A DNA stretch of 64,000 nt from Clavaria fumosa. Lineage: Eukaryota; Basidiomycota; Agaricomycetes; Agaricales; Clavariaceae. The stretch is taken from the NCBI GenBank assembly GCA_951802425.1, contig OX637803.1:1922001-1986000 (forward strand). Direction: 5' to 3'. Within the stretch, counting starts at the first letter, position 1. Every line of letters begins with the position of its first letter. The notes below the pieces were generated by a model, which saw only the letters and a list, made by a program, of their open reading frames with translations, did not search any database and was not told where the DNA came from. Position numbers and translations under genes: made by a program. Shown here in pieces: positions 42,333 to 57,700 of this stretch.

Positions 42333-42386
42333 TGTCGGTTTTGCTGTGCTAGTGGTAATGCAACCGCTTACTCAAGCGGACATTTA
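42333..42386 (+). mobile_element. Copia-C: start of 5' LTR (first fragment)
   Basis: TGTCGGTTTTGCTGTGC...GCAACCGCTTACTCAAGCGG...CATTTA matches, over its whole length, the reverse complement of the last part of the copia-B LTRs (54537-54786, 61036-61278). It is therefore the beginning of a plus-strand LTR. It breaks off at a TA (42385-42386) where the RPN2-carrying element is inserted, and resumes at 54385. Confidence 0.75.
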
Positions 42387-42648
42387 CAGCTGTTTGCGAA
42401 ATTATTGGCGGCGCGTCGATTACATAAGTTTTTTTTTCCGTTTGTGCAGCAGAAAACGTCGCACAAATTATAGCTCATTCAATTCTTCATCAATTTGAGT
42501 GATTTAGATTGGGTTAGATGCAGAAAAATTTTGCGCAGGGCCTGGTATAATTTTCATTTTCATGCGTGTATTGTTGCGCCCAAGAAAATTCAAATATTAG
42601 TTTTGATGACATCAGCCACAACTCAGATGCATCCTGATACTCAACCGT

Positions 42649-43570
42649 GTGCTACGTTGCTGCCCCGACCTTGGCTGTCTATTCTATTCCACAGTCAGAT
42701 GTATTCAATGTCTGGTCAGGTGCCAGCATCCCTTGCTCCACCGTTTGTGCCCCAACAACACTTTCCGATGGATGATCGCAACAGCTAGTGCCCACCCTCC
42801 TCCAGGTTCCTGCACATTCTACCTCACCTCTGCAATACCCGGGCTGCATGCGCACATCCGCCAATTCATACCGAATACATTCAAGTCAGTCTTCTCTTGC
42901 CCATCGCCCTGGCCGCATCTTCACACACACTCAGACAGTCGCAGCGATCGCCGCTGTGCCTCCTTCTACCCTTCCAACTCACCTTCCTCAACTTCAAGTA
43001 GCCCAACGCTCACCGTCTCTTTGCTGAAATCCCTGGTACCACACAAGAAACTCCTAGCGTATCAGCTCACCTTCGATGTCGCAGAAGATGGTAGCCAGGA
43101 TTTCTTGGAAAGTCTTCGCAACGAGTTGCCTCAGGGCGACGCTGCGTGTCTCCAGCGTTTTCTCATTCCTGTTACTCATCCTGATACATGCAAGTTCTAG
43201 GTATTTGATGACTTCTCACTGGATAAGAGTCGATCAGATTATGCTTCGAATTCCTCAGACACAACAACAAGATCGATATGCACATATGAAGGTGAGTCAC
43301 TATTTATCGGATAGCGAATGACCGAAGAGTTGAGCTCTATGCACAGGACATTCTGGAGCTTCGGTTCTCTATCTACCACAATGCTCTCGTGCTATGAAGT
43401 GCTTTCATGCACACTGGGACCACATCAGACACATTCTTATGCAACCATCTCGAGTGGCTGGGTATAGCCTCCGATTGGGCCATTTTTTCGGCGACGGCAG
43501 CTTTGGGAGTGATACACAAGGGCTTAGAAGAAGGTACGACTATCCTCGGTCCCTACCTCCCGTTGTTTGC
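42649..43570 (+). pseudogene. RPN2: Captured RPN2 (26S proteasome subunit) fragment, left arm
   Basis: The plus strand encodes HKKLLAYQLTFDVAEDGSQD then FLESLRNELPQGD (43039-43143), and [20 protein letters not shown] then [20 protein letters not shown] plus [15 protein letters not shown] (about 43400-43560). These are consecutive parts of proteasome subunit Rpn2/PSMD1, up to its first PC repeats. A TGA stands at 43396-43398 where the right-arm copy has CGA (NALVL-R-SAFM). The intervening segments do not form a full-length gene. It is a transduplicated host fragment, not a working subunit. Confidence 0.78.
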
Positions 43571-43601
43571 TGGCGAAAGCTGACTACAAGGTGCTGCTTA
43601 T

Positions 43602-44088
43602 TCAGAAGGCACCCATTCCTGCAATACCAAGGCCGAGCGCCGCGCTGTGCTGCATGACTTCTCCTTGCGCAGATTTTAGGCTGTCCTGTAAGTAACCCTC
43701 CACCATCCATCCACTTCCACATCCTGCATTGATCAGTCCGAGAGTATACAGAGCACCGGACGAAATAACGAAGCGTATGACGACCTCAAGCAAACCCTAT
43801 TTACGGACTCGGCTCTCACTGGCGAGGCAGCTGGATATGCCATGGGCCTCATCATGTTGCACACAGGGTGATCATCACCACTTCTGGGCGCACCCATCAT
43901 TGTCGGGGCCGGCGCTCAGCGATGACCATGCTGCATTGTGCTGCAGGACTTCTCCTTGCACAGACTTGAGACTGTCCTGTAAGTAACCCTCCACCATCCA
44001 TCCGCTTCCACATCCTGCATTGATCAGCCTGAGAGTATAGAGAGCACCGGAAGATATAACAAAGCGTATGACAACCTCTCCACTCCAA
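43602..44088 (-). pseudogene. RPN2: Inverted, duplicated RPN2 PC-repeat pieces, left arm
   Basis: The minus strand at 43602-43793 encodes SGALYTLGLINAGCGSGWM and SLKSAQGEVMQHSAALGLGI + AGMGAF, the part of Rpn2 that should follow ILGPYLP on the plus strand. A second diverged copy is at about 43897-44080 (minus). Between them, on the plus strand at about 43776-43870, lies YDDLKQTLFTDSALTGEAAG + YAMGLIMLHTG, the next Rpn2 segment in its original orientation. So within the arm one segment is inverted and doubled relative to the native gene order. Confidence 0.7.
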
Positions 44089-44365
44089 TTTCGACTATGA
44101 GCTGCAGCTCGCTAAAGAAGGGGACATCCATGCCGCTGCAGAACTTCGTCAAAAAGCTGCATCTTCAGTATGTCCACCTAATCACTTGTGCCCCATGATA
44201 GAGGCCTCTGACAGACAATAACTACCAGGAACCATCTACTCGTACTCCGGAGCATGCATTGGAGGAAGCTGAGATTCTAGTTCATCACTGCTGGCTCTGT
44301 GTGCACCTTGTGGGATGCCATGGTAGCACAGAGAAAGAGATCACGTCTATCATCTCAGTTATGCG

Positions 44366-44595
44366 TATTGAAAAACTAGGGATAGTCCGTTAGCCCAGTC
44401 AAATGTAAGACTGTCATATTGCAGTAGTACCTAGGGATAGTCCGTTCTACCCTAGGGCATCAGAAAAGTACTAGTGCGAAGTTAAAAAGGAAATTACTCA
44501 CAGCCCAGTCAAATGTAAGACTGAGCTGTGGCAGAGTTCCGGTCGCTCCCAAATAGGGCGCATCATTATGTAATCTGTCCGGGTGATTACCAACA
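44366..44595 (-). repeat. Copia-A 3' LTR
   Basis: 230 bp; ends CCAACA on the plus strand next to the polypurine tract. It contains the internal repeats CTAGGGATAGTCCGTT and GCCCAGTCAAATGTAAGACT, each present twice. Confidence 0.92.
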
Positions 44596-44602
44596 CTCCC
44601 TC

Positions 44603-47600
44603 TCAAACGGGCAGGAGCGCGAGTTCCCTAACGAACGCCTCAAAAGCGGGACGCGGAAGCGGCTTTGTCAGGCCGTCGGCAACATTCTCTCCCGTCGGCA
44701 CATACTCCACGCCTATCGTTCCGCTCTCGACCGCCTCGCGAATGAAGTGGTGCCGGATGTCGATATGTTTGGTGCGTGCGTGGAACTTGTTATTCTTTGT
44801 TATCGCGATCGTTGACATGTTGTCAAGCCACAGCCTCGTCGCCCCTGGTTCGCTGACTCCCACCTCGGCGAGGAACGTCCTCAACCAGAAGATCTCCCTC
44901 GCAGCCGTCGCGGCTGCGATGTACTCTGCTTCCGTACTTGATTGTGCAACCAAGGTTTGCCTCTTGGACGACCAACTGACTGTGCCGCGCCCAATTCGAA
45001 CGACGAAACCCGATATCGAGTGTCGATCTGGCTGCGATGCCCAATCGGCGTCAGAGAAAACTTCCGTGATGGTCCCGGCGCCTCCTAAGGTAAGCCAGAG
45101 GTCTTTGGTGGTACTCAGGTATTTAATTAACCGCTTCAACGCTTCCCAGTGAGCACGCGCAGGGTTCATTGTGAATTGCGACAGGATCCCGATCGCCAAC
45201 TGGATATCGGGCCGTGTGATTACCGCTGGCCAGAGCGCACCACCGCAGGCTTCCTGGTAAGGTACGTTAATCGGCTCCGCGGGGCATTGATCCTTCGAGA
45301 GGACCTCGCCAGCGTCCATAGGGGTGTAGACCGGGTGTCCAGCCTGCAAACCGAAGCGTTTCGCAAGGACCTCCAGGTAAGCACGTTGGTTCAAAGCTAT
45401 CGTTCTCGCCGCTCGGTCTCGCTTCACCTCGAATCCCAACAGCCACGACAACTCGCCCTGGTCTGTTATCTCGAACGACTTCCGTAATTCCGCCTTCACT
45501 CGGTCGACAGCTGTCCGCGTGTTTCCCATCACAACCATGTCATCCGTGGAAACAGTGACGTGTACATTCTGATCTCCTTTTGTCCTAATAAACGCTGATT
45601 GGTCGAGTTTGGACACGTCAAAACCGAGCGATATAAAGGTCGCGGCGAGCATGCGGTACCACATGCGACCGGCTTGTTTCAGTCCGTACAGGCCCTTTCG
45701 TAGCCTGCACACCTTCCCCCTGTCGTTGTAGTCAGTACCCTTCGTTTGTTTGTGACCACCTGCGACGACGCGTGCTTTGTACTTTAGGATTTCGCCCTTC
45801 GGTCCCAGTTTCACCCTGAAGACGTATCCACAAGGGATGACAGGCTTGATTGCGGGGCGTTGGACGATGTCCCAGGTGTGTACCCGATTCAATTGATCCA
45901 GCTCGGCCTGATAAGCTTCTTTCCAGTGGGCAGCGTCTGGGCCTGCGAGAGCTTGCGCGATTGTGCGTGGCTCAATGCCGATGAGTCCTGCGTGGAGAGC
46001 AAATAAGGGTGAGTGGTTATCGTTTTCTGCATGGGTGACGTTAGCGGCAGTTCCGCGCGGTGGGTAACCTGCAAGAATTTTGTAAAAGCCCGGTTGAGGA
46101 CGGATGCGGCCGCGGGGAGGATCGTCGGGGGGGGTGAATCCAGGAGAGTGGTCGTCGTGAGGTTCGTGCTCATCATTTTCGTGCTGCTGATTTTCAATCA
46201 GCTGATCATCGACAGTGTCGAGATTGATAGGCGGTTCAGCTTCGACGGTGGGGTGCCGGATGTTGTTAGTCATCCTCCCCTCAGACGGTACTTCACCGGT
46301 CCATGCGATGGGGTCAGTCGTCTCATCCAAGTTGAAGACGACTTCACGCTCAATCCTAATTTGTTTTTTGTCAGGAAAATAAATCCTGTACCCAGTGCTA
46401 GTCGAGTCGATGCCGATGAAGTGGCCCTTGCGGGCTCGGCGTTCGAGTTTGCCGGCGTCGACAACCTTTACCCATGCTTGCGTGCCGAAGGGGACAAGTT
46501 TCGAGAGGTCGGGGTGTCTAGCATAGCGGGCGTTGAACGGAGTTTGACCCTCGAGCGCGCGGGTGGGTGATCGATTCTTTATCCATGCCGCGTGGTTCAT
46601 CGCTTCGCCCCATAGAAACTTTGGCAGTTTTGAATCAATAAGCATGGCTCTTGCGAGCTCCGCTTTCGTTCGATTCCACCTCTCGACGACTCCTACCTGT
46701 TCGTGTGTGTCGTGAGTCGTGAGCTCTCGCTTCGTCCCTTTTGCAGCTAAATGATCTGAGAACAGATCACTGTTGAATTCGCCGCCTCGGTCTGACCGTA
46801 GGAACTTTATCTTTACTTTTTCGTGAGTGTTTATTTGGGCTTCAAGGGCTTTGTAGGCAGCGAATGCGTCTGACTTCTTGTGCAAGGGGAAGATCTCGGT
46901 CCAACGGGTTGCGTCGTCGACAAAGTCGACAGTGTAGCGGCTGCCGCCTAGAGTTGCGGTAGATGCCGGACCCCAGACGTCTGCGTGGATCCGTTCGCCG
47001 TACGTCGCTGCTCGGTTTGTTGCTTTCTCAGGGAATGGTAGGCGGTGGGGTTTCGCTTGCGCGCATGCCTCGCAAAATACTTCTTCGGAAGTGTTGTCAA
47101 GCTCAATCCCGTGCACCTTACCAGTCGTTATAGCATGTTTGACTGCGGCGTAGTTTATGTGGCCGAGGAGACGGTGGGCTTCGAACAAAGTAAGTGTTCT
47201 AATCTTCTTCGTTAAGTGGGCTTCGAGGGGTAACGCCTCTATGCGGTAGAGCCCGTTAACCTTCGGGATCTGAGCCAGGGTGTTGCCCTGTTTGTCCTTT
47301 ACCAGACATAGATTGTCGGTGAACTCAGCGGTGTACCCGGCGTCATCGAGTTTGCCGACCAACACCAAGGTGAAAGCCATACTAGGTGCGTGCGCAACGT
47401 TTTTCAGTCGCAGCGTGCTTACGCGGTCACCGTTGGGAGTTTGTAGGACGACGTCACCACGCCCGATGGCGTTCAGCTCGCGTCCGTCGGCAGCAGTTAC
47501 TGCGGTTGGGCTTGTAGGTGAGTAGTTGACGAACATAGACTTATCTGGACAGAAATGCGCCGTCGCGCCGCTGTCAAGTATTATGTCGCGGTTTTTACCC

Positions 47601-48595
47601 GGAAACATGGCCGCCGCATGGTCGTACTGATCCCCTAGGCAAGTAAAAGCGAGGTACTCCTCGTTTTTCTCTTTCTCCTTGGTCAACGCAGTAGCCGCGT
47701 TGGCTTTGTCTCTTTCCTTTTTCTTTTGCCAAGGGGCTTGGCCTTGTTTTGCTCTGCCATCGGCATAGCAGCTATCGGTCTTGTGGTTAGTACGTTTGCA
47801 ATTTGCGCATGGTGTTTTCGTGACCGAATCGTCTGAATTGCCTTTGCGGTTTCGGCCCTTTTTAACGAGAAGGGCTGCGTCTCCTGACTTCGAAGCCTGG
47901 TTGGCGATCTCGCGTTGTCTCGCTTCTTCGAGAACAATGCGCATGAGGTCGTTCGGGGATATGTCCGTTCCAGAGAGGCTCGCGGCGTGCGTTATCGAGT
48001 GGAGGAGAGATCGGTAGCTCGGTGGCAGCGAGGTAAGAAGCATAGTTGCAAAGTCCTCGTCGGCGACTGACGCGCCTATACCGTCCAGCTCCTCTCGGAT
48101 TTTCAACATTGCGTTCAGGTGGGCCTTTACATCTCCGTCCTCGCTGCAGAGCATGGACTGCAGCCTGCGACGCGTGTCAACTTTGTGTAGTTGACTTTTC
48201 TTCGTAGCGTCAAGGCGGATAGCGGTCCACATCTGTACACCTGTCATGGACTTGATGATCGTAGCAAGACGTGGGGATACTGTGGTAAGCAAGATATGTT
48301 GCACACTGTATTCCTTCTGTTCGTATTCATCAAATTTACATTCTTTTTCTTCCAGATCTTCGTCGGTTGCTTTAACTCCCGGAGCCTTCATCGGGATTCC
48401 TTCAAGTTCAGGGTAAGCAACCGGTTTTCGCGCAGTGCCGTCACGATGCCTGATCAGTCCTCTAGCACCCATAGCAGTTCGAGCTTTTGACTCGTAATCG
48501 GCCCAGTTTGCTCCGTTGTTGCGGAGTCGGGGCACGGCCATGGCGTTGGTAGAGGTGTTGGCAGTCATGTTGTCGGTTTGTGCAACGAATCTCAT
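44603..48595 (-). CDS. Copia-A gag-pol polyprotein, reverse transcriptase internally deleted
   Basis: One open frame of 1,330 residues. Order: gag with Zn knuckle CANCKRTNHKTDSC (about residue 265); protease DSGATAHFC (about 340); integrase with VWGPAS, RSDRGGEF and VVERWNRT giving D, D, E (about 537-638); reverse transcriptase; RNase H with SDADWA and SSTEAEYIAAA (about 1185-1222). In the reverse transcriptase the text runs TDYND directly into RGKVCRLRKGLYG. The related copia-B has about 55 further residues at this point, including DQIDVVSAYLN with the first catalytic Asp. The later motif VSTDDM (about 1017) is present. The deletion is in frame, so the protein is translated but should lack polymerase activity. 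The ATG sits 5 bp inside the LTR border, within the presumed primer site. Confidence 0.92.
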   Translation of the reverse strand: MRFVAQTDNMTANTSTNAMAVPRLRNNGANWADYESKARTAMGARGLIRHRDGTARKPVAYPELEGIPMKAPGVKATDEDLEEKECKFDEYEQKEYSVQHILLTTVSPRLATIIKSMTGVQMWTAIRLDATKKSQLHKVDTRRRLQSMLCSEDGDVKAHLNAMLKIREELDGIGASVADEDFATMLLTSLPPSYRSLLHSITHAASLSGTDISPNDLMRIVLEEARQREIANQASKSGDAALLVKKGRNRKGNSDDSVTKTPCANCKRTNHKTDSCYADGRAKQGQAPWQKKKERDKANAATALTKEKEKNEEYLAFTCLGDQYDHAAAMFPGKNRDIILDSGATAHFCPDKSMFVNYSPTSPTAVTAADGRELNAIGRGDVVLQTPNGDRVSTLRLKNVAHAPSMAFTLVLVGKLDDAGYTAEFTDNLCLVKDKQGNTLAQIPKVNGLYRIEALPLEAHLTKKIRTLTLFEAHRLLGHINYAAVKHAITTGKVHGIELDNTSEEVFCEACAQAKPHRLPFPEKATNRAATYGERIHADVWGPASTATLGGSRYTVDFVDDATRWTEIFPLHKKSDAFAAYKALEAQINTHEKVKIKFLRSDRGGEFNSDLFSDHLAAKGTKRELTTHDTHEQVGVVERWNRTKAELARAMLIDSKLPKFLWGEAMNHAAWIKNRSPTRALEGQTPFNARYARHPDLSKLVPFGTQAWVKVVDAGKLERRARKGHFIGIDSTSTGYRIYFPDKKQIRIEREVVFNLDETTDPIAWTGEVPSEGRMTNNIRHPTVEAEPPINLDTVDDQLIENQQHENDEHEPHDDHSPGFTPPDDPPRGRIRPQPGFYKILAGYPPRGTAANVTHAENDNHSPLFALHAGLIGIEPRTIAQALAGPDAAHWKEAYQAELDQLNRVHTWDIVQRPAIKPVIPCGYVFRVKLGPKGEILKYKARVVAGGHKQTKGTDYNDRGKVCRLRKGLYGLKQAGRMWYRMLAATFISLGFDVSKLDQSAFIRTKGDQNVHVTVSTDDMVVMGNTRTAVDRVKAELRKSFEITDQGELSWLLGFEVKRDRAARTIALNQRAYLEVLAKRFGLQAGHPVYTPMDAGEVLSKDQCPAEPINVPYQEACGGALWPAVITRPDIQLAIGILSQFTMNPARAHWEALKRLIKYLSTTKDLWLTLGGAGTITEVFSDADWASQPDRHSISGFVVRIGRGTVSWSSKRQTLVAQSSTEAEYIAAATAAREIFWLRTFLAEVGVSEPGATRLWLDNMSTIAITKNNKFHARTKHIDIRHHFIREAVESGTIGVEYVPTGENVADGLTKPLPRPAFEAFVRELALLPV

Positions 48596-48599
48596 AATC

Positions 48600-48831
48600 T
48601 ATTGAAAAAAACTAGGGATAGTCCGTTAGCCCAGTCAAATGTAAGACTGTCATATTGCAGTAGTACCTAGGGATAGTCCGTTCTACCCTAGGGCATCAGA
48701 AAAGTACTAGTGCGAAGTTAAAAAGGAAATTACTCACAGCCCAGTCAAATGTAAGACTGAGCTGTGGCAGAGTTCCGGTCGCTCCCAAATAGGGCGCATC
48801 ATTATGTAATCTGTCCGGGTGATTACCAACA
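48600..48831 (-). repeat. Copia-A 5' LTR
   Basis: 232 bp, same as the 3' LTR apart from two extra A near its inner end (TATTGAAAAAAACTAGGG). The gag ATG follows after 4 bp (GATT on the minus strand). Confidence 0.92.
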
Positions 48832-48836
48832 ATGCG

Positions 48837-49103
48837 GGCGAGTCCCACTGCGTCGGCCATCAGAAGGTCTTCACCAACCCTGCATAGAGAAAACAGGGTT
48901 GCGCAGAATGCCTAGTTAGGTACCACTAATGTAGCTTGTAACGAGGAAATGCTCATGTATGCGCAGGAGACACAGCACAAGAAGATCATGTATGTAGTCT
49001 TGCAATTTGCAGTAAACCCATCTGATTTGTGTGCCCGTGCTTTCAACACGTGACCCTGCATCTGCTCGACATCCTACCTCGTGTTGCTCATTGTCCTGCT
49101 TGT
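48837..49103 (+). repeat. Left inverted arm, inner part
   Basis: Continues the left arm after the copia-A insertion and matches 52635-52897 in reverse. It includes a 25-bp hairpin, AACCCTG...CAGGGTT, at 48876-48900, which the right arm repeats at 52836-52860. Confidence 0.8.
48876..48900. other. Hairpin in left arm
   Basis: AACCCTGCATAGAGAAAACAGGGTT folds into a 7-bp stem (AACCCTG/CAGGGTT). The mirror copy at 52836-52860 keeps the stem though the loop differs (AACCCTGTGTAGCGAAAACAGGGTT when read inward), so the pairing is preserved against sequence change. It may mark the ends of an older inner element (48876-52860) or be a functional subterminal site. Confidence 0.6.
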
Positions 49104-49148
49104 TGTCTTGCTCATCTGGCCTGAGTTGTGTCTTTGCCTTGATTGTCA

Positions 49149-51101
49149 ATGGGCAATCAGAGAAATGGCCAATCACGTCTGAAAACTACTGCTCAAGTTT
49201 CCGCAAAACCATCCAAAACGGTTGGGCGACCGAAGAAAAATGCTCCGCACAGTATATCTGGAGAAGCAACACAGGTATTTTTTTATTTCTTCACTAATTA
49301 CATGTCTTACCCATCACCCTTTCTCATATCAGCACAAACGAGTCAAGAAACCGAGTGCGAAGATGTCAGCTATACTTGAGGTTGAAGAGGCAGATGACGA
49401 TGAGAATGACGATGAAGAAGCAGAGGCTAGCTTCTACGACGTTGCTCATAGCACACTTAGAGTACTCGAGAAGGATCATGGTGAAGATCAAGACATCTCT
49501 ACTGGTACGTGTGGTCCCTCCTTTACTGAGAACCTTTATTTATCTTGACAAGAATTTCCTGAAGCTGCCGGCCTTGCTGATGAGTTACCAGATGAGGAGA
49601 TCACACTGCCTCCTGATCTTCCCCCGTATCAGATTACATTCGAAGTCCCCTGTGGTAAATACTCTCGAGACTTGTCTGCCAAGAGTATTTGGACCTGGTC
49701 GCTTTTTGTTGATAATGTCACTCGTATTATGGATTGTCACTCCTCGTCTCTTGTGCTTGGCTACGTTTTACCATGGAAAGTCAAATCCAACCAAAAGGCT
49801 ACCCCGAAAATCCTCGATGATGCTGATGCATTTGAAAAGTTGAAGGCGGACACTCAGATATGGCGCACCAAGCAAATAGCAAAGAAAAAGGCGAAGGATA
49901 TCTCTATTCAGCTTTTTGATCTTCGCTCTGATAAAGACAGTGTCCCAAAGGTAACAGATTCATTTCTTGTCTCTGTTCCGTGCTTGTCTTGATTTTTACT
50001 CCTCCCCAATAGCCTTCAAAGAAGTCTGGGCCAGCAACTTCCGCGCGCACAGAAAATCGAGATGTGGTAGCAGCTGCAGCACGTGATGCAAAGTTGAACT
50101 CAATCGTTCAAGAGATCAATAGTCGTCACCGTTGCAACGAGCACAAGATTGCTGATTATGTACGAAGTGATGGCACACATGAACCATTCACCATAGCTCA
50201 GATTGCACAATGGGCTGAGCTTATTGTGAGCTTTTCTTGTTCTTGTTGTTTATTTGCACAGCTGACACCATTCAGACTAGGAATTTTGAAGGGGTGGGCA
50301 TAGAGAAACCCCCTGCGCAACTGAAGCTGTATGACCATGTGCCGAAACGCAAGCGTACAAATAGCCTGTCTTCGGAACCTGTGATGGCAACCCCAAATCC
50401 GCCCCTCCCAACACCGATGCCAGCTCCACCCACTCCTGTTATCGCAACGCAGACACAGGTAAACTCCACCTTTAGGCCGTTTGTTCAATGTCTAATTCTG
50501 CTGCTAGGTGGCAGGCGCTTCCGTACCAGTTCAAGCCATGCCCCAGACAGTCGGACTACCACAGGCTACCATGGCGATGCAACCGAATATGGCCGTCTCC
50601 GGCCTGCCCCTCCCTTTGCAACAGACCATGCCCAATCTCAACTTCAATCCCTTCATGCTGCCACAATTGGGAGCGTTCGGCTTTCCCTCTCCTTACATGC
50701 CTTTCCAAATTCCTCCAGGATACCAACTGCTGCCATTGAACCAAAGTGCCCCCCCACAGACTCGGGACACAGATGGCTTTCGTTACCGCCCATTTTCCAA
50801 TGACCAACTTGTGGCCAATCCAGCAGGTAATGAATTGCTGGTGCTTTATCCTGATTTGAAGGCTTGGCTCGAATTTTGTGATAGAGATTTTGTCCGTGGA
50901 CGTGATGGTGAGAATTATGCGCAGTATGCAGATGCGCTGATCGGGAAGCGGCTCCTTCGGCTGGATGATTTTGTAGAGTTGCAGGCTGCCGATCTCCTGC
51001 AGATTTGCACCGGAATGGAGATTGGGACGGGACGTAGGATACTGCGCTTTGCTCATGAAGACATTCAAAAGCTCAAGAAAGGCCAGAAGTTGCATATCTA
51101 G
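49149..51101 (+). CDS. SAM-domain companion protein of the transposon, AT-hook-like N-terminus
   Basis: Starts MGNQRNGQSRLKTTAQVSAK and soon has GRPKKN, an AT-hook-like DNA-binding patch. An intron (GTATTTTT...ATATCAG) joins to HKRVKKPSAK and an acidic run EVEEADDDENDDEEAEA. Middle parts include YQITFEVPCGKYSRDLSAKS, LGYVLPWKVKSNQKATPK and SRHRCNEHKIADYVRSDGTH. A Pro/Met-rich linker (MPAPPTPVIAT; LPLPLQQTMPNLNFNPFMLP) leads to a C-terminal SAM-like domain: YPDLKAWLEFCDRDFVRGRD, RLLRLDDFVELQAADLLQI and IGTGRRILRFAHEDIQKLK. About five introns; no breaks seen. It converges on the transposase gene. I infer a DNA- or partner-binding role in transposition or its control; no function is known to me. 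Confidence 0.7.
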
Positions 51102-51194
51102 GAGACCAGTTCCTTCGTTCATCCATTCAAGTATCTCTTTGTTCATTGTGAATAGTAATGCAATGAAAACAAATTTGTGATTTCAAGCTATGTG

Positions 51195-52386
51195 CTACAC
51201 ATATCGACAATGATGGAAGAAACCATGCGCTGCTTGAGAGGAGATAGAGTATACAGTTTTGAAGAGATGAGCATACACGTTTGTATCATTTGCCTGTCTC
51301 CAAAGTCCTTCAACATGCCTTTTGTCATGTTGAAGCCATTTCTTGATGACCGAAAAGGCAAGTTCGATGGGGTTGAAGTCTGGCGAATAAGGAGGGAGGA
51401 ATTCCACACGCATTCCACTGCAAAAGATGTCAGCAATGGTGAAAGGGGATCCTCGCAACCTTACCACGCATAAATCATCTCAATGACTTCAGGGGATTTG
51501 TGGATACGGCAATTGTCCATAATAATCACAGACTTCTTGCCCGGAAAAGCCCACATGCAGTTAAGTAGTTCTGAAATGAAGCACAAGAAGAGCTGCGCAT
51601 CAAAAGACCCTTCAACAATCTTGCAATGAAGCATCCCATCCAACGTTAGTGCCGGAAGGATAGAATATCTGGCCGGTATCATTTTCAGTTCACAGGAATT
51701 TGAATAAATGTGCTCTCACCGTTTTCCTCGAACAAAAAAAACCTTCCTGGATGCTCGCTGTCCCTCCAATGCCCAAGCCTGACCTCTAACATATGTTCGT
51801 CGGTCACAGGCGCTCTCATCGACAAATACCAGCTGTTCCGGTTCATATTTGAGGCCAATGCGTGTACAGTACGCCGTCCTCAGCTCTTCACTTCGTTCTG
51901 CAGCCTCCCTTGAGATCTGGGGGAGGATATTCAAGTAATCTCAGTGCGTTCTTAGAGTACTAAAGGCATACCTTTTTCATCCGAAATCCTGACCGACGCA
52001 AGGAGTGCCATACCGTCGTTTCACTCACAGTCTTACCAGACATCTCTGAAAGATATTCCTTCAACTCAGAAAGGTATAAGTCATTGCGATGCAGCAGGAG
52101 ACCTCGAAGGAACTGCCAGATACATATCAGTTAGGCTGCAAAGGGAAACTGGCAGAGAACGCACAGCAAGATCATCGTAGTCCAATGCCCTCCTGCGACC
52201 ACAGAGCTGCACAGAACTTCTGGGTGGGACTTGTTGGCCTTGCCGGTGTGTCGATAGTATGCGTTCGATAGTCCGACAAGGAATGAGGGTGAGCTTGTTG
52301 ATAGCATCGACGTTGCAAGGGAGAGCAGTTGCCATATGGATGACGACGCGGCGGAGATCCTCTGACACACGGCGTCCACGAGTCAT
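51195..52386 (-). CDS. IS630/Tc1-mariner-type DDE transposase
   Basis: ATG at 52384-52386 (MTRGRRVSEDLRRVVIHMAT), then a helix-turn-helix: NVDAINKLTLIPCRTIERIL. A second helical part follows (YLSELKEYLSEMSGKTVSET + TVWHSLRRSGFRMKK), then the DDE_3 catalytic domain: QLVFVDESACDRRTYVRG (first D), KSVIIMDNCRIHKSPEV (second D), and FLPPYSPDFNPIELAFSVIK (E), followed by a short C-terminal tail ending at 51195. All three acidic residues are present. Introns restore the frame (e.g. the one between IYAC and GMRVEF, near 51422-51464). I see no stop or frameshift, so the element may be able to move. It converges with the SAM-domain gene. Confidence 0.85.
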
Positions 52387-53176
52387 CTGAAGGGGAGCAG
52401 GATAGTAAAGCACGAAGAACTTGTGTTGGTTGGCCTGGCATGAGCATACGCCCACGCACGTTGAGGCCTGAGGAACGAACGAGAAGTGACCTCACGTGCC
52501 ATCACGAGCATGGATGAACTGGTCCACACATCAGCTTGCAATAAATCTACTAGTAGCAATACTTCTAGCCACTGACTGGCCTACACATGACAATGGCAAG
52601 TCCTCGAATGAGCTACTTGTGCTGTGTCAAAGATACAAGGCAGGACAATGAGCAATGCGAGGTAGGATGTCGAGCAGATGCAGGGTCACGTGTTGAAAGC
52701 ACGGGCACACAAAAAAGAGTCGACTGCAAATTGCAAAACTACATACATGATCTTCTCGTGCTGTGTCTCCTGCGCATACATGAGCATTTCCTCGTCACAA
52801 GCTACGTTAGTGGTACCTAACTAGGCATTCTGCGCAACCCTGTTTTCGCTACACAGGGTTAGTGAAGACCTTCTGATGGCCGACACAGTGGGACTCGTCC
52901 ATGTAACTGAGACGATAGATGCAATCCATTTCTCTGTGCTACCACGGCATCCCACGAGGTGCACGCAGAGCCAGCGGTGATGAACTAGAATCTCAGCTTC
53001 CTCCAATGCGTGCTCCGGAGTACGAGTAGATGGTTCCTGGTAGTTATTGTCTGTCAGAGGCCTCTATCATGGGGCACAAGTGATTAGGTGGACATACTGA
53101 AGATGCGGCTTTTTAACGAAGTTCTGCAGCGGCATGGATGTCCCCTTCTTTAGCAAGCTGCAGCTCATAGTCGAAA

Positions 53177-53663
53177 TTGGAGTGGAGAGGTCGTCATATG
53201 CTTTGTTATATCTTCCGGTGCTCTCTATACTCTCAGGCTGATCAATGCAGGATGTGGAAACGGATGGATGGTGGAGGGTTACTTACAGGACAGTCTCAAG
53301 TCTGTGCAAGGAGAAGTCCTGCAGCACGACGCAGCATGGTCATCGCTGAGCGCCGGCCCAGACAATGATGGGTGCGCCCAGAAGTGGTGATGATCGCCCT
53401 GTGTGCAACGTGATGAGGCCCATGGCATATCCAGCTGCCTCGCCAGCGAGAGCCGAGTCTGTAAATAGGGTTTGCTTGAGGTCGTCATACGCTTCGTTAT
53501 TTCGTCCAGTGCTCTGTATACTCTCGGGCTGATCAATGCAGGATGTGGAAGTGTATCGATGGCGGAGGGTAACTTACAGGACAGCCTAAAATCTGCGCAA
53601 GGAGAAGTCATGCAGCACAGCGCGGCACTCGGCCTTGGTATTGCAGGAATGGGTGCCTTCTGA
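53177..53663 (+). pseudogene. RPN2: Inverted, duplicated RPN2 PC-repeat pieces, right arm
   Basis: Mirror of the left-arm pieces. The plus strand at 53472-53663 encodes SSALYTLGLINAGCGS and SLKSAQGEVMQHSAALGLGI + AGMGAF-stop; a diverged second copy lies at 53177-53368. The minus strand between them carries the YDDLKQTLFTDSAL segment. Confidence 0.7.
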
Positions 53664-54125
53664 ATAAGCAGCACATTGTAGTCGGCTTTTGCCAGCAAAC
53701 GATGGGAGGTAGGGACCGAGGATAGTCGTACCTTCTTCTAAGCCCTTGTGTATCACTCCCAAAGCCACCGTCGCCGAAAAATTGACCCAATCGGAGGCTA
53801 TACCCAGCCACTCGAGATGGTCGCATAAGAATGTGTCTGACGTGGTCCCGGTGTGCATGAAAGCACTTCGTAGCACGAGAGCATTGTGGTAGATAGAGAA
53901 CTGAAGCTCCAGAATGTCCTGTGCATAGAGCTCAACTCTTTGGTCATTTGCTATCCGATAAATAACCTGGAGGAGGGTGGGCACTAGCTGTTGCGATTGT
54001 CCATCGGAAAGTGTTGTTGGGGTGCAGACGGTGGAGCAAGGGATGCTGGCACCTGACCAGACATCGAATACATCTGACTGTGAAATAGAATAGACAGCCA
54101 AGGTTGGGGCAGCAGCGTAGCGCAC
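53586..54125 (-). pseudogene. RPN2: Captured RPN2 fragment, right arm (open frame, 179 codons)
   Basis: One uninterrupted frame starts MRYAAAPTLAVYSISQSDVF, passes [60 protein letters not shown] and TTILGPYLP, and ends in unrelated residues where the next RPN2 segment is inverted. The start of the frame is arm sequence fused to RPN2 by the ~500-bp deletion at CCTCCAGG. It keeps CGA where the left arm has a stop. Whether it is translated is unknown; it lacks most of the subunit. Confidence 0.72.
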
Positions 54126-54384
54126 AGTTGAGTATCAGGATGCATCTGAGTTGTGGCTGATGTCATCAAAACTAATATTTGAATTTTCTTGGGTGCAACA
54201 ATACACGCATGAAAATGAAAATTATACCAGGCCCTGCGCAAAATTCTTCTGCATCTAACCCAATCTAAATCACTCAAATCGATGAAGAATTGAACGAGCT
54301 ATAATTTGTGCGACGTTTTCTGCTGCACAAATGGAAAAAAAACTTACGTAATCGATGTGCCGCCAATAATTTCGCAAACAGCTG

Positions 54385-54536
54385 TAATTACTCTTTTTAG
54401 CTGTACAACTTTCTTTTGCCACAGCTCAGTCCTTACTATGACTGAGCTAATACAGATCTCTTTAGACTTTCTACAGATTATGAGACTTGTTATGCAAAAT
54501 CAACCTCTACAGAGCAATGCTATTGCTGTCCCACAT
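54385..54536 (+). mobile_element. Copia-C: rest of 5' LTR, primer site and gag start (second fragment)
   Basis: After the TA the LTR continues (ATTACTCTTTTTAGCTG; CACAGCTCAGTCCTTACTAT) in shortened form, ends CTACA, and is followed by GATTATGAGAC, the primer site and gag ATG (54480-54482, MRLVMQNQPLQSNAIAVPH). The orientation is opposite to copia-A and -B. It stops at CACAT (54532-54536), the target duplication of copia-B, and resumes at 61279. Confidence 0.75.
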
Positions 54537-54786
54537 TGTAGAAAAACTAATATGATCTGTATTAGCTCAGTCATAGTAAGGACTGAGCTATAGTGATACC
54601 TAATATGATCTGTATTCTACTCCATGTGATCAGAGATGTGAAATACGGAATAAAAGATCAGGTTACTCACAGCTCAGTCATAGTAAGGACTGAGCTGTGG
54701 AAGAAGAAAAATGTATGGCTAAAAACAGTAATTAAATGTCCGCTTGAGTAAGCGGTTGCATGGCCACAGGCACAGCATTACCAACA
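54537..54786 (-). repeat. Copia-B 3' LTR
   Basis: 250 bp. It contains the palindromic CTCAGTCATAGTAAGGACTGAGCT-like unit twice, as in the 5' LTR. Confidence 0.88.
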
Positions 54787-54793
54787 CTCCCCC

Positions 54794-57700
54794 TCAAGCG
54801 GGCAGGAGTGTGAGTTCGCACAGAAAAATGGTGAAGGCGGGGCGTGCAAGTGGTTTTGTAAGTCTGTCGGCAATGTTCTCACTGGTCGGGACATACTCGA
54901 TGGCAATAGTGCCTTGTTCCACAGCTTCGCACACTAGATGGTGCCGAATATCTATGTGTTTCGTCCGCGCGTGAAACTTGTTGTCCTTCGCTATGGCAAT
55001 AGTCAACATGTTGTCGACCCACAGCTTCGTCGCCCCTTCTTCATGCGCTCCCACCTCTGTCAAAAAACTTCGCAACCAGTAGATTTCCCTCGCTGCGTGC
55101 GCCGCAGCTACATACTCTGCTTTGGTACTCAACTGCACAACCAATGTTTGCCTTTTCGACGACCAAGTCACGGCGCCATGTCCAAGTCTCATCACGAAGC
55201 CCGAGATTGAATGCCTGTCAGCTTGTGAGGCCCAATCCGCATCCGAGAAGACTTCGGGACGGATTGCAGCGCCGCCTAAGGTGAGCCAGAGGTGCCTGGT
55301 CATGTGTAAGTATCGGATCACCCTTTTTAGCGCTTCCCGGTGCTCCTGTACAGGGTTTTGGGTGAACTGTGACAGAATCCCAATCGCTAGTTGGACGTCA
55401 GGGTGGGTAATGACATGAATGACAGCCAGCCAGAGAACTCCGCCGCAGGCCTCTTGATAGGGTACATCTATCGGGTGGTTGGGCACTGATCCTTTGACAG
55501 TGGGACACTCGGATCCATCGCAATATGGACCTTGCGTCCTTTCTCAAGGTCAAAACATTTCGCAAGCGCCTCAATGTATGCTTGTTGGCTCAGCGAGAGC
55601 GTTCTCGCCGTCCTGTCTCTCTTGACCTCAAAACCGAGCAGCCAGGTGAGTTCCCCTTGGTCCATGATCTCGAATGACACTTTCAGCTCCCCTTTTACAC
55701 GGTCAACCACAGCCCTGGAATTTCCCATGATGATCATGTCATCCGTTGACACTGGTACGTGAATGGCTTCGTCTCCTTTTGTTCTTATGAAGACTGATTG
55801 ATCTAGTTTTGACACCTTGAATTCCAGGAGTGCGAATGTGCATGCCATTCGGTCATACCACTTTCTGCCCACTTGTTTCAGCCCATAAAGGCCCTTTAGC
55901 AGCCAGCAAACCTTTCCTTTCTCCTTATCCCCCAAAATCCCACTTGGAGCCTCCATGTAGACCTCGTCTTCGAGGTCGGCGTTCAGGTAAGCGCTCACCA
56001 CGTCTATTTGGTCGATTTCCCAGTTCCACTGGGCTGCCAGAGTCAATAGAACCCTTATTGATCCAATTTTCGCAGCTGCAGCGAAGGTTTCGTCATAGTT
56101 TACACCTTTTGTTTGACGATGTCCGCCAGCAATGACTCGTGCCTTGTACTTGACAATCTCGCTGTTGGGTCCAAGCTTCACCTTGAAGACATATCCACAG
56201 GGGATAACAGGCTTGTTGAGTGGATGGTCAACAATGTCCCAGGTGCATAGTCATTTCAGAACATCGAGCTCGGCCTGATAGGCCTGTTTCCATTGGCTAG
56301 CATTGGGGCTTGCTAGCGCCTGAGCAAGAGTGCGGGGCTCGCTACCGACTGCACCAGTGTGTAGGGCGATCAAAGGTATGTTGCCAGTGTATTCTTGAGC
56401 GGTATCTGCATTGCTGACATTAGCTCTTTCTGGAGGGTAGCCTGCTAGGGTCCGGCAGTACCCTTGCTGCGGGCGTGTGCGGCGGGGACGTTCCTCCTGG
56501 TCTGCAGGTGGGTCAGAGGGTGCGGGCGGCACCGTGTCTGCGCCGTTAGTGTCAAGGGTGTCAGGCTCGTCGTCATTGAGAGGTGAGTGAGGACGCAGTA
56601 TGGTTTTATGTCTCTCCCCCTCATGCTGCATCTCACCAGGCCAAATTAGTGTGTCGGGATTCTCATCTCGATTGAAGATGACCTCGCGTTCGATTCTGAC
56701 CTGTCTCTTATCAGGGAAGTAGATGCAGTAGCCAGTACTAGTTGAGTCAAAACCAATGAAATGACCCATCCACACTCGAGACTCGAGTTTCCCAGCTTTA
56801 GCGAGCTTTACCCAGGCCGTGGTGCCAAAAGTGACTGCACGAGAGAGGTCGGGGTGTTTCCCATAGCAGGCTCGGAATGGGGTGTGACCGTTGAGTGTGC
56901 ATGTGGGTGCTCTGTTCTTTATCCATGCTGAGTGGCTCATTGCTTCACCCCAAAGATACCTCGGGAGCTTTGAGTCGATGAGCATGGCTCTTGCCAGCTC
57001 GACCTTGGTCCTATTCCATCATTCTGCAACACCAGCTTGCTCATGCGTGTCATGCACAGTGAGTTCTCATTTAGTTCCTTTGGCAGCTAAGTGGTCTGAA
57101 AAGTCTTTGGAGGTGAACTCTGCACTGCAGTCAGAGCATAGGTACTTCACTTTCGCATTGTTTTGGGTTTCTAGGGCTGCCTCAATCCTTTTATAGGTGT
57201 TGAGAGCCTCGGATTTATTGCGTAGGGGATAGAGCTCCATCCATCATGTCGCATCGTCGATAAAATCAATCGTGTAGCGGTTTCCTCCCAGGGATTGGAC
57301 AGATGTGGGCCCCCAAAGGTCTGTATGGATGCACTCGCCGAATCGTTTGGCGATGTTGGTTGCCTTCTCCGGGAATGGTTGATGGTGGGGCTTGGCCCGT
57401 GCACAGGTGTCACAGAAATGTGCATCTGTCATGTCGTCTACTTCAATTCCTAAAACCTTGCCTGATGAAATAGCATGTTTTACTGCAGCATAATGGATGT
57501 GTCCAAGTATGTGATGTGCCTCAGACATCATGAGTTTTTGCGTCTTCACGGCCACGTGGACTTTGTCTGATGGAGGCAAAAGCCTTGGTATTCTGTACAG
57601 ACCATTTGTCTTTGGAACCTTAGCTAGGAGTTTTCCTTGTGCACTCTTTACGAGACACAGGTTCTCTGCAAATTCCATGATATAGCCAGCTTCAGAGAGT

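Follow-up and report, generated by a model that had tools for sequence, protein, structure and literature searches.

A Tc1/mariner-group transposon of Clavaria fumosa with rearranged pieces of the proteasome gene RPN2 in its long inverted arms

The element described here lies in a 64,000-nucleotide window of the Clavaria fumosa genome (C10:1922001-1986000, forward strand; 48.76 Mb in 17 contigs), where it sits inside the long terminal repeat (LTR) of a copia retrotransposon and consists of two long inverted arms surrounding a centre of ~3.5 kb that contains two genes. The left arm comprises 2252 bp, excluding a younger copia that is nested within it, and the right arm 1755 bp. Coordinates of the element are window positions throughout, and C2, C3, C5 and so on denote contigs of the genome. 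The overall architecture, including the target-site duplication (TSD) and the region shared with relatives of the miniature inverted-repeat transposable element (MITE) type, is as follows:

42387-54384 (no strand): whole element, 11998 bp including the nested copia, 7527 bp without the copia and one copia TSD
42385-42386 (+): left TSD, TA, in the context TTA
54385-54386 (+): right TSD, TA, in the context TAA
42387-44365 (+): outer part of the left arm, from inverted-repeat comparison
42387-42642 (+): family-specific terminal region of the left arm, wholly or partly common to MITE-like and other relatives at ~71-85%
44366-48831 (-): younger copia nested in the left arm, TSD ATGCG at 44361-44365 and 48832-48836, 225-bp LTR stretches identical
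48837-49109 (+): inner part of the left arm, beyond the copia, from inverted-repeat comparison
52630-54384 (-): right arm, without an equivalent of 42809-43300

The terminal 20 bp, CAGCTGTTTGCGAAATTATT, occur at 42387 (+) and 54384 (-) as a perfect inverted match, which falls to 94% when extended to 53 bp. An exact search of the entire 48.76-Mb genome finds this sequence in four places, namely at both ends of the element, in a second copy on C3 and at C5:3147601, and a genome-wide control search with the reversed pattern returns no match. When the flanks of the element are joined with one TA removed, they align without gaps over 117 bp with their inverted partner in the same copia LTR (54671-54787), the reference here being an inverted repeat within that LTR and not an independent empty allele. 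Because removal of one TA restores the gap-free alignment, the target duplication is exactly TA, inside TTAA; among all elements examined, this empty-site type of comparison covers the element in the window. The region 42387-54384 is thus confirmed as a DNA transposon that inserted at TA and whose inverted ends are identical over 20 bp, and the original prediction, made from the letters of the window, was right both in its identical TA-flanked ends and in its claim that the flanks rejoin into a copia LTR. Remains of another copia polyprotein at 54794-56250 (-) adjoin the LTR that hosts the element. The match at C5:3147601 (-; locus L041) is a perfect 20-bp end, flanked by TTA, that borders a different interior and represents another family with the same terminus.

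The two arms align as four inverted-repeat stretches, 42430-42808/53964-54342 (96% identity), 43301-44361/52904-53964 (96%), 48836-49013/52723-52900 (94%) and 49021-49109/52630-52718 (91%), the second of which runs for 1061 bp without a gap and has its internal junctions in common between the arms. The long inverted arms that had been predicted are therefore real, although their inner boundary is corrected to ~49109/52630. The arms are unequal in that 492 bp of the left arm (42809-43300) are missing from the right arm.

Much of the arms derives from host genes. The open reading frame (ORF) of the right arm matches solved Rpn2/PSMD1 chains with a best E of 7.8e-19, and the host RPN2 gene on C3 (locus L027; Proteasome/cyclosome repeat, E=3.2e-21) aligns with the arms piece by piece, as expected from the earlier recognition of Rpn2 coding pieces in both arms. 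In host order the captured RPN2 block corresponds to C3:3162262-3163217, with an identity to the host of 83-94% depending on the piece. The pieces of the left arm are:

42930-43004 (+): 75-bp match, 81%, to a host 1277-aa ORF (C10:1614553-1614629), just before RPN2
42991-43610 (+): RPN2 piece A, host C3:3162262-3162897, 83%, predicted intron sequence kept
43610-43758 (-): RPN2 piece B, 149 bp, inverted in place, host C3:3163045-3162897, 88%
43758-43859 (+): RPN2 piece C, host C3:3163045-3163146, 94%
43930-44078 (no strand): second copy of 43639-43787, comprising parts of B and C with the inversion junction, 89%
44076-44365 (+): acetyltransferase-like piece, first part, host C3:3850285-3849999, 78%
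48839-48923 (+): acetyltransferase-like piece, second part, resuming past the copia, 83%
48915-48989 (+): RPN2 piece F, host C3:3163143-3163217, 87%, resuming where piece C ends

The arm therefore reads A forward, B inverted, C forward, 70 bp, the partial B/C duplicate, the acetyltransferase-like piece (from the host region C3:3850285-3849911, 78% and 83%) and F. In the host, piece F follows directly on piece C (3163146/3163143), whereas in the element the duplication and the acetyltransferase-like piece separate them, which indicates nested capture. Visual inspection of the four junctions with two known sources shows 1-3 bases in common at each. The predicted host introns of RPN2, placed by GT-AG ends and frame breaks, are retained in the captured copy, so that DNA rather than mRNA was copied; in our reading, intron sequence also appears to be kept in the acetyltransferase-like piece. 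By alignment, then, the arms hold rearranged RPN2 with a nested acetyltransferase-like fragment, that is, pieces of at least two host genes, which are probably passengers and not working genes. The 1277-aa ORF behind the 75-bp match is presumably FG-nucleoporin-like. A source was also sought for the 70 bp at 43860-43929 and for much of 42643-42929, and none was identified.

The centre carries two genes, both of which are open under the predicted splicing:

51195-52386 (-): transposase, 328 aa, five exons with predicted introns (52386-52165, 52112-51972, 51916-51720, 51668-51465, 51417-51195)
49149-51101 (+): second gene, 561 aa, introns predicted from GT-AG ends and the open frame, exons 49149-49274, 49333-49504, 49553-49950, 50013-50225, 50276-50458, 50508-51101

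The transposase matches Pfam DDE_3 (PF13358) with E=5.8e-28 over model positions 1-138 of 146, and its catalytic spacing, counted on the 328-aa product, is DD34E. Its N-terminus matches HTH_33 at E=4.2e-6, above the cut-off, and HTH_Tnp_Tc3_2 at E=8e-4, below it. The DDE_3 domain, the DD34E spacing, the TA duplication and the helix-turn-helix N-terminus together assign the element, from its predicted features, to the Tc1/mariner group, and the transposase would be the enzyme that moves it. The DDE transposase of the original prediction is accordingly retained, whereas the SAM label given to the neighbouring gene finds no SAM model in Pfam up to E=1 (VHS, at E=0.013, is below its cut-off) and now derives from a structure model, in which the C-terminal domain of the 561-aa protein appears SAM-like in fold. 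An initial structure model (197 aa; predicted local distance difference test, pLDDT, 51) matched nothing in the PDB, and a profile search of the SAM-like domain against PDB sequences returned NusA alone, at E=0.42. No match to the 561-aa protein was obtained in a set of 5.8 billion proteins, from which the 7,992 candidates with the most words in common with it were scored, and the accessible parts of the literature searched contain no description of a SAM-like transposon partner protein. The 561-aa protein probably plays an accessory role, either by binding DNA or by forming oligomers; we take the GRPKK near its N-terminus to be an AT-hook-like motif. The third exon of the second gene has five matches in the genome, all of which belong to the two copies of the window's element and to three copies of a related type (L057, below).

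The second copy of the element lies at C3:1454468-1466412 in the opposite orientation, with an insertion of its own between 1455345 and 1460096. Its arms match those in the window, and its right-type arm likewise has no equivalent of the 492 bp at 42809-43300. This absence from both copies is the best indication that the arms had been built, and were already unequal, before the copies separated. The left arms of the two copies differ from each other by 3.4%, the right arms by 4.0-4.3%, left from right arms by 3.9-5.3% and the centres by 2.6%, and over ~310 bp four site patterns group left with left and right with right, compared with one and zero for the other two groupings. The second gene of the C3 copy has a 3-bp insertion. 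The right arm in the window contains an open 182-aa chimeric frame (53586-54134, -) composed of element sequence and RPN2, which is open in the C3 copy too.

In the genome, the first arm section has matches in 30 places, and the relatives that were fetched share 120-430 bp of the outer arm, ending between ~42515 and 42812, with none reaching RPN2. Among 19 fetched loci, 11 end-like sequences (≤5 mismatches) were found, 10 of them preceded by TTA and one (L029) shifted. Each of the nine matches of the arm stretch 43300-44365 falls in one of the two elements, in host RPN2 or in the acetyltransferase-like gene of the host, so that the check proposed for arms without a transposase yields no arm outside the element, the inner part 48837-49109 not having been queried alone. 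The centre is found in two copies, both armed, together with two 78-bp matches; the same search yields no armless copy and no copy ending at the inner hairpins (48876/52860), a form that would have told against the predicted arms. As true ends these hairpins were rejected, the one at 48876 lying in the acetyltransferase-derived piece. We also note a 716-bp near-palindromic MITE at C6:179226-179941 (L034), with related ends CAGCTGTTTGCAAAA and TTA flanks.

The pairing of a SAM-like gene with a DDE_3 transposase recurs in this genome. The last exon of the second gene has 12 matches. Seven of them have a DDE_3 stretch no more than 6 kb away and the other five lie at distances of 12, 61, 131, 155 and 399 kb, compared with 2.6% of random points on nine contigs that come within 6 kb of such a stretch. 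At E 0.001 the genome contains 128 stretches that match DDE_3, and some genes account for several of them. The seven paired loci include both copies of the window's element and three near-identical copies of another, and so represent four element types, of which one representative each was read. The L057 type (C5:1383250-1389969) has terminal inverted repeats (TIRs) of 316 bp (94%), is flanked by TTA and contains RPB1 pieces (Rpb1_4, 4.4e-30; Rpb1_6, 1.1e-37; PDB, E=8.5e-61; host on C9, 90-93%) nested between two pieces of a TPR gene (host on C3, 79% and 74%). Searches of the TPR piece give TPR only, and we take it to be CYC8-like. Three copies of this type, on C5, at C3 ~1447.4-1454.2 kb and at C6:1893-1898 kb, carry cargo that agrees at 100% (rounded); judged from the position of its cargo, the one on C3 is ~300 bp away from the C3 copy of the window's element. 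The L058 type (C12:953448-959191) has TIRs of 215 bp (97.7%) and, between its genes, a Zn(2)-Cys(6) match just below the cut-off. The L059 type (C2:4389500-4398500) has a fungalysin fragment between the two genes (M36, E=1.6e-56; host on C7, 91-97%) and inverted 1.46-kb RasGEF pieces outside the pair (RasGEF_N, E=2.9e-10). By their alignments, cargo from host genes is thus certain for L057, probable for L059 and not nameable for L058. A candidate second element with arms built from a gene, based on the inverted RasGEF sequence of L059 (781 bp, then 1.46 kb), was rejected, as a search of the locus found no terminal repeats and the right copy runs on as a fuller gene.

We consider it probable that the element is a two-gene Tc1/mariner-type transposon that captured its host cargo by repair copying, duplicated this cargo at the opposite end and then transposed as a whole. 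The starting point would have been an ancestor with ordinary ends of ~0.25-0.43 kb that underwent break, gap or fork repair, during which copying from RPN2 switched to other templates; such switches could leave the 149-bp inversion, the 149-bp duplication, the nested acetyltransferase-like insert and the junctions with 1-3 shared bases. Homology between the inverted ends may then have primed the copying of the cargo block to the other end, which would produce a 2-kb inverted repeat, and movement of the enlarged element would have given rise to the C10 and C3 copies. The view of the original prediction, that a mariner-group element captured host coding DNA and carries it in very long inverted ends, is supported by these data, yet it was incomplete, since it was reached without the second captured gene, the 75-bp nucleoporin match, the second copy or the capture in a related element.

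Near-complete inverted copies would also be expected of a composite transposon, in which two small non-autonomous elements bearing RPN2 landed in inverted orientation on either side of a transposase region and are now mobile together, and solo MITE-like relatives of the outer ends do exist. However, within the element the terminus is matched (≤5 mismatches) at 42387 and 54384 only and at neither inner arm boundary, no solo arm is present among the nine genome matches of 43300-44365, and two of the three other SAM/DDE_3 types have ordinary ends of 215-316 bp around the same gene pair, none having been found for the third. We therefore regard a composite origin as improbable. An inverted segmental duplication of host sequence enclosing a transposon by chance has a possible parallel in the L059 pair, around which inverted RasGEF pieces lie with no terminal repeats found. 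Here the arms stop exactly at TA-flanked perfect 20-bp termini inside an LTR, and the same arms recur in a copy on a different contig; the TSD and the second copy refute such a duplication for the window's element, leaving it with the least credence of all the explanations considered.

It is also unlikely, slightly more so than a composite structure, that the arms are functional, with read-through transcripts forming hairpin RNA that silences RPN2 or shields the transposon. The inverted arrangement, the runs of 21-47 identical bases between the left arm and host RPN2 and the open chimeric frame of both right-type arms are in keeping with a function, but RPN2 is an essential proteasome gene, the silencing of which should be costly, and left-type arms carry two stops in the equivalent of the 182-aa frame.

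Returning to capture by repair copying, we tentatively extend it, with somewhat more doubt than conviction, to a separate Tc1/mariner-type lineage, characterised by its AT-hook/SAM-like partner gene, that would insert at TTAA with TA duplication and repeatedly take up host pieces by nested template switching; in the present member the captured genes would have been built into both ends, such that host coding sequence forms part of the moving TIRs.

Several observations weigh against capture by repair copying. The genome searches reveal no intermediate, neither a one-armed cargo element nor an RPN2-free sister with the same centre; that capture came first and arm copying second is therefore our inference. 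The divergences within and between arm types overlap and agree loosely with the grouping of the site patterns. The C3 copy is without one outer end, its match stopping at 1466412, and its transposase has a 5-bp insertion, such that there is one complete copy only and the TSD comes from a single copy. The downstream exon of the acetyltransferase-like host gene gives weak GNAT matches, below the Pfam cut-offs. As for the other element types, the sequence between the genes of L058 is repeated DNA with 16 matches and no nameable host gene, and terminal repeats were sought at L059 and not found, so its host pieces may sit outside the transposon.

The element indicates that a cut-and-paste transposon can lengthen its terminal repeats with host exons and introns and still reach a new site. 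In fungi, it makes the nested capture of essential-gene pieces (RPN2, RPB1) by Tc1/mariner-type elements accessible to dating. It further draws attention to a protein with a SAM-like domain as a transposon partner, and its arms are a possible source of hairpin RNA directed at an essential gene, which can be tested.

Pack-MULE carriers are without a transposase gene, whereas the element in the window encodes an open 328-aa transposase of its own, a difference that extends to Pack-TIRs. Helitrons are rolling-circle elements with neither TIRs nor a TSD, in contrast to the TIRs and TSD described here. The element shares with Pack-TIRs the presence of non-transposon host DNA with identifiable sources, here RPN2 and the acetyltransferase-like gene on C3, but differs in that its cargo, a mosaic assembled from at least two genes, is located in both inverted arms and not between the TIRs; it therefore works like a Pack-TIR without being a typical one. 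The following comparisons draw on the portions of the cited papers that were available. Pack-TIRs and Pack-MULEs are TIR transposons with captured host DNA, template switching features in the authors' models, and TcMariner accounts for 115 of 370 animal Pack-TIRs (PMC8277862). A typical Tc1 has ~1.3 kb, ~30-bp TIRs and a single ORF, and the ciliate Tec elements ~700-bp TIRs and three ORFs (PMC7325037); Tc1 and Tec/TBE resemble our element in the TA target, the DDE_3 transposase and the DD34E spacing, and Tc1 differs from it with respect to the 2-kb arms largely derived from host genes and the SAM-like partner gene. The Foldback element FB4 of Drosophila also carries a host gene that it captured (Ssk) and has long TIRs (~700 bp), but is non-autonomous and has TSDs of 9-10 bp (PMC8277862), as opposed to TA and a transposase of its own.

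Among fungi, a hAT element with histone H3 and a Tc1/mariner element with an extra ORF multiplied alongside it are reported for Pyrenophora tritici-repentis (PMC3538342), cases of transduplication that make the earlier statement that no example is described in fungi too wide. In Pseudocercospora fijiensis and relatives, H3 resides in hAT elements (TIRs of 20 bp in P. fijiensis), and the P. fijiensis H3 copies are called retrocopies (PMC6710886), as distinct from the intron-retaining pieces in the window. Both systems resemble ours in that host-like sequence is amplified with a DNA transposon, but their cargo lies between the TIRs and not within the arms. Captured genes are also carried by Helitrons of Pleurotus and other fungi (PMC4289320), a further likeness in that gene fragments are captured in basidiomycetes, and DDE_3 and Tc3 domains occur in a Tc1-mariner family of Pleurotus ostreatus (PMC4905642). 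Gene capture by DNA transposons is thus already known, fungi included, with one Tc1/mariner case reported in the available portions. What is new is the presence of captured genes in both arms and of nested mosaics in a SAM-partnered lineage; the accessible parts of the literature searched describe no fungal element with captured genes in inverted arms and no SAM partner.

Finally, a diverged end of the family (71%; G000) is present in six equal-scoring copies at C10:16826, C9:138489, C7:297519, C4:4114362, C3:145681 and C2:4615518. Equal-scoring SAM homologues at C2:4712094, C3:226550, C4:4023374 and C7:218795 lie 79-97 kb from these ends on the same contigs, which suggests a large repeated chromosome segment or a giant element.

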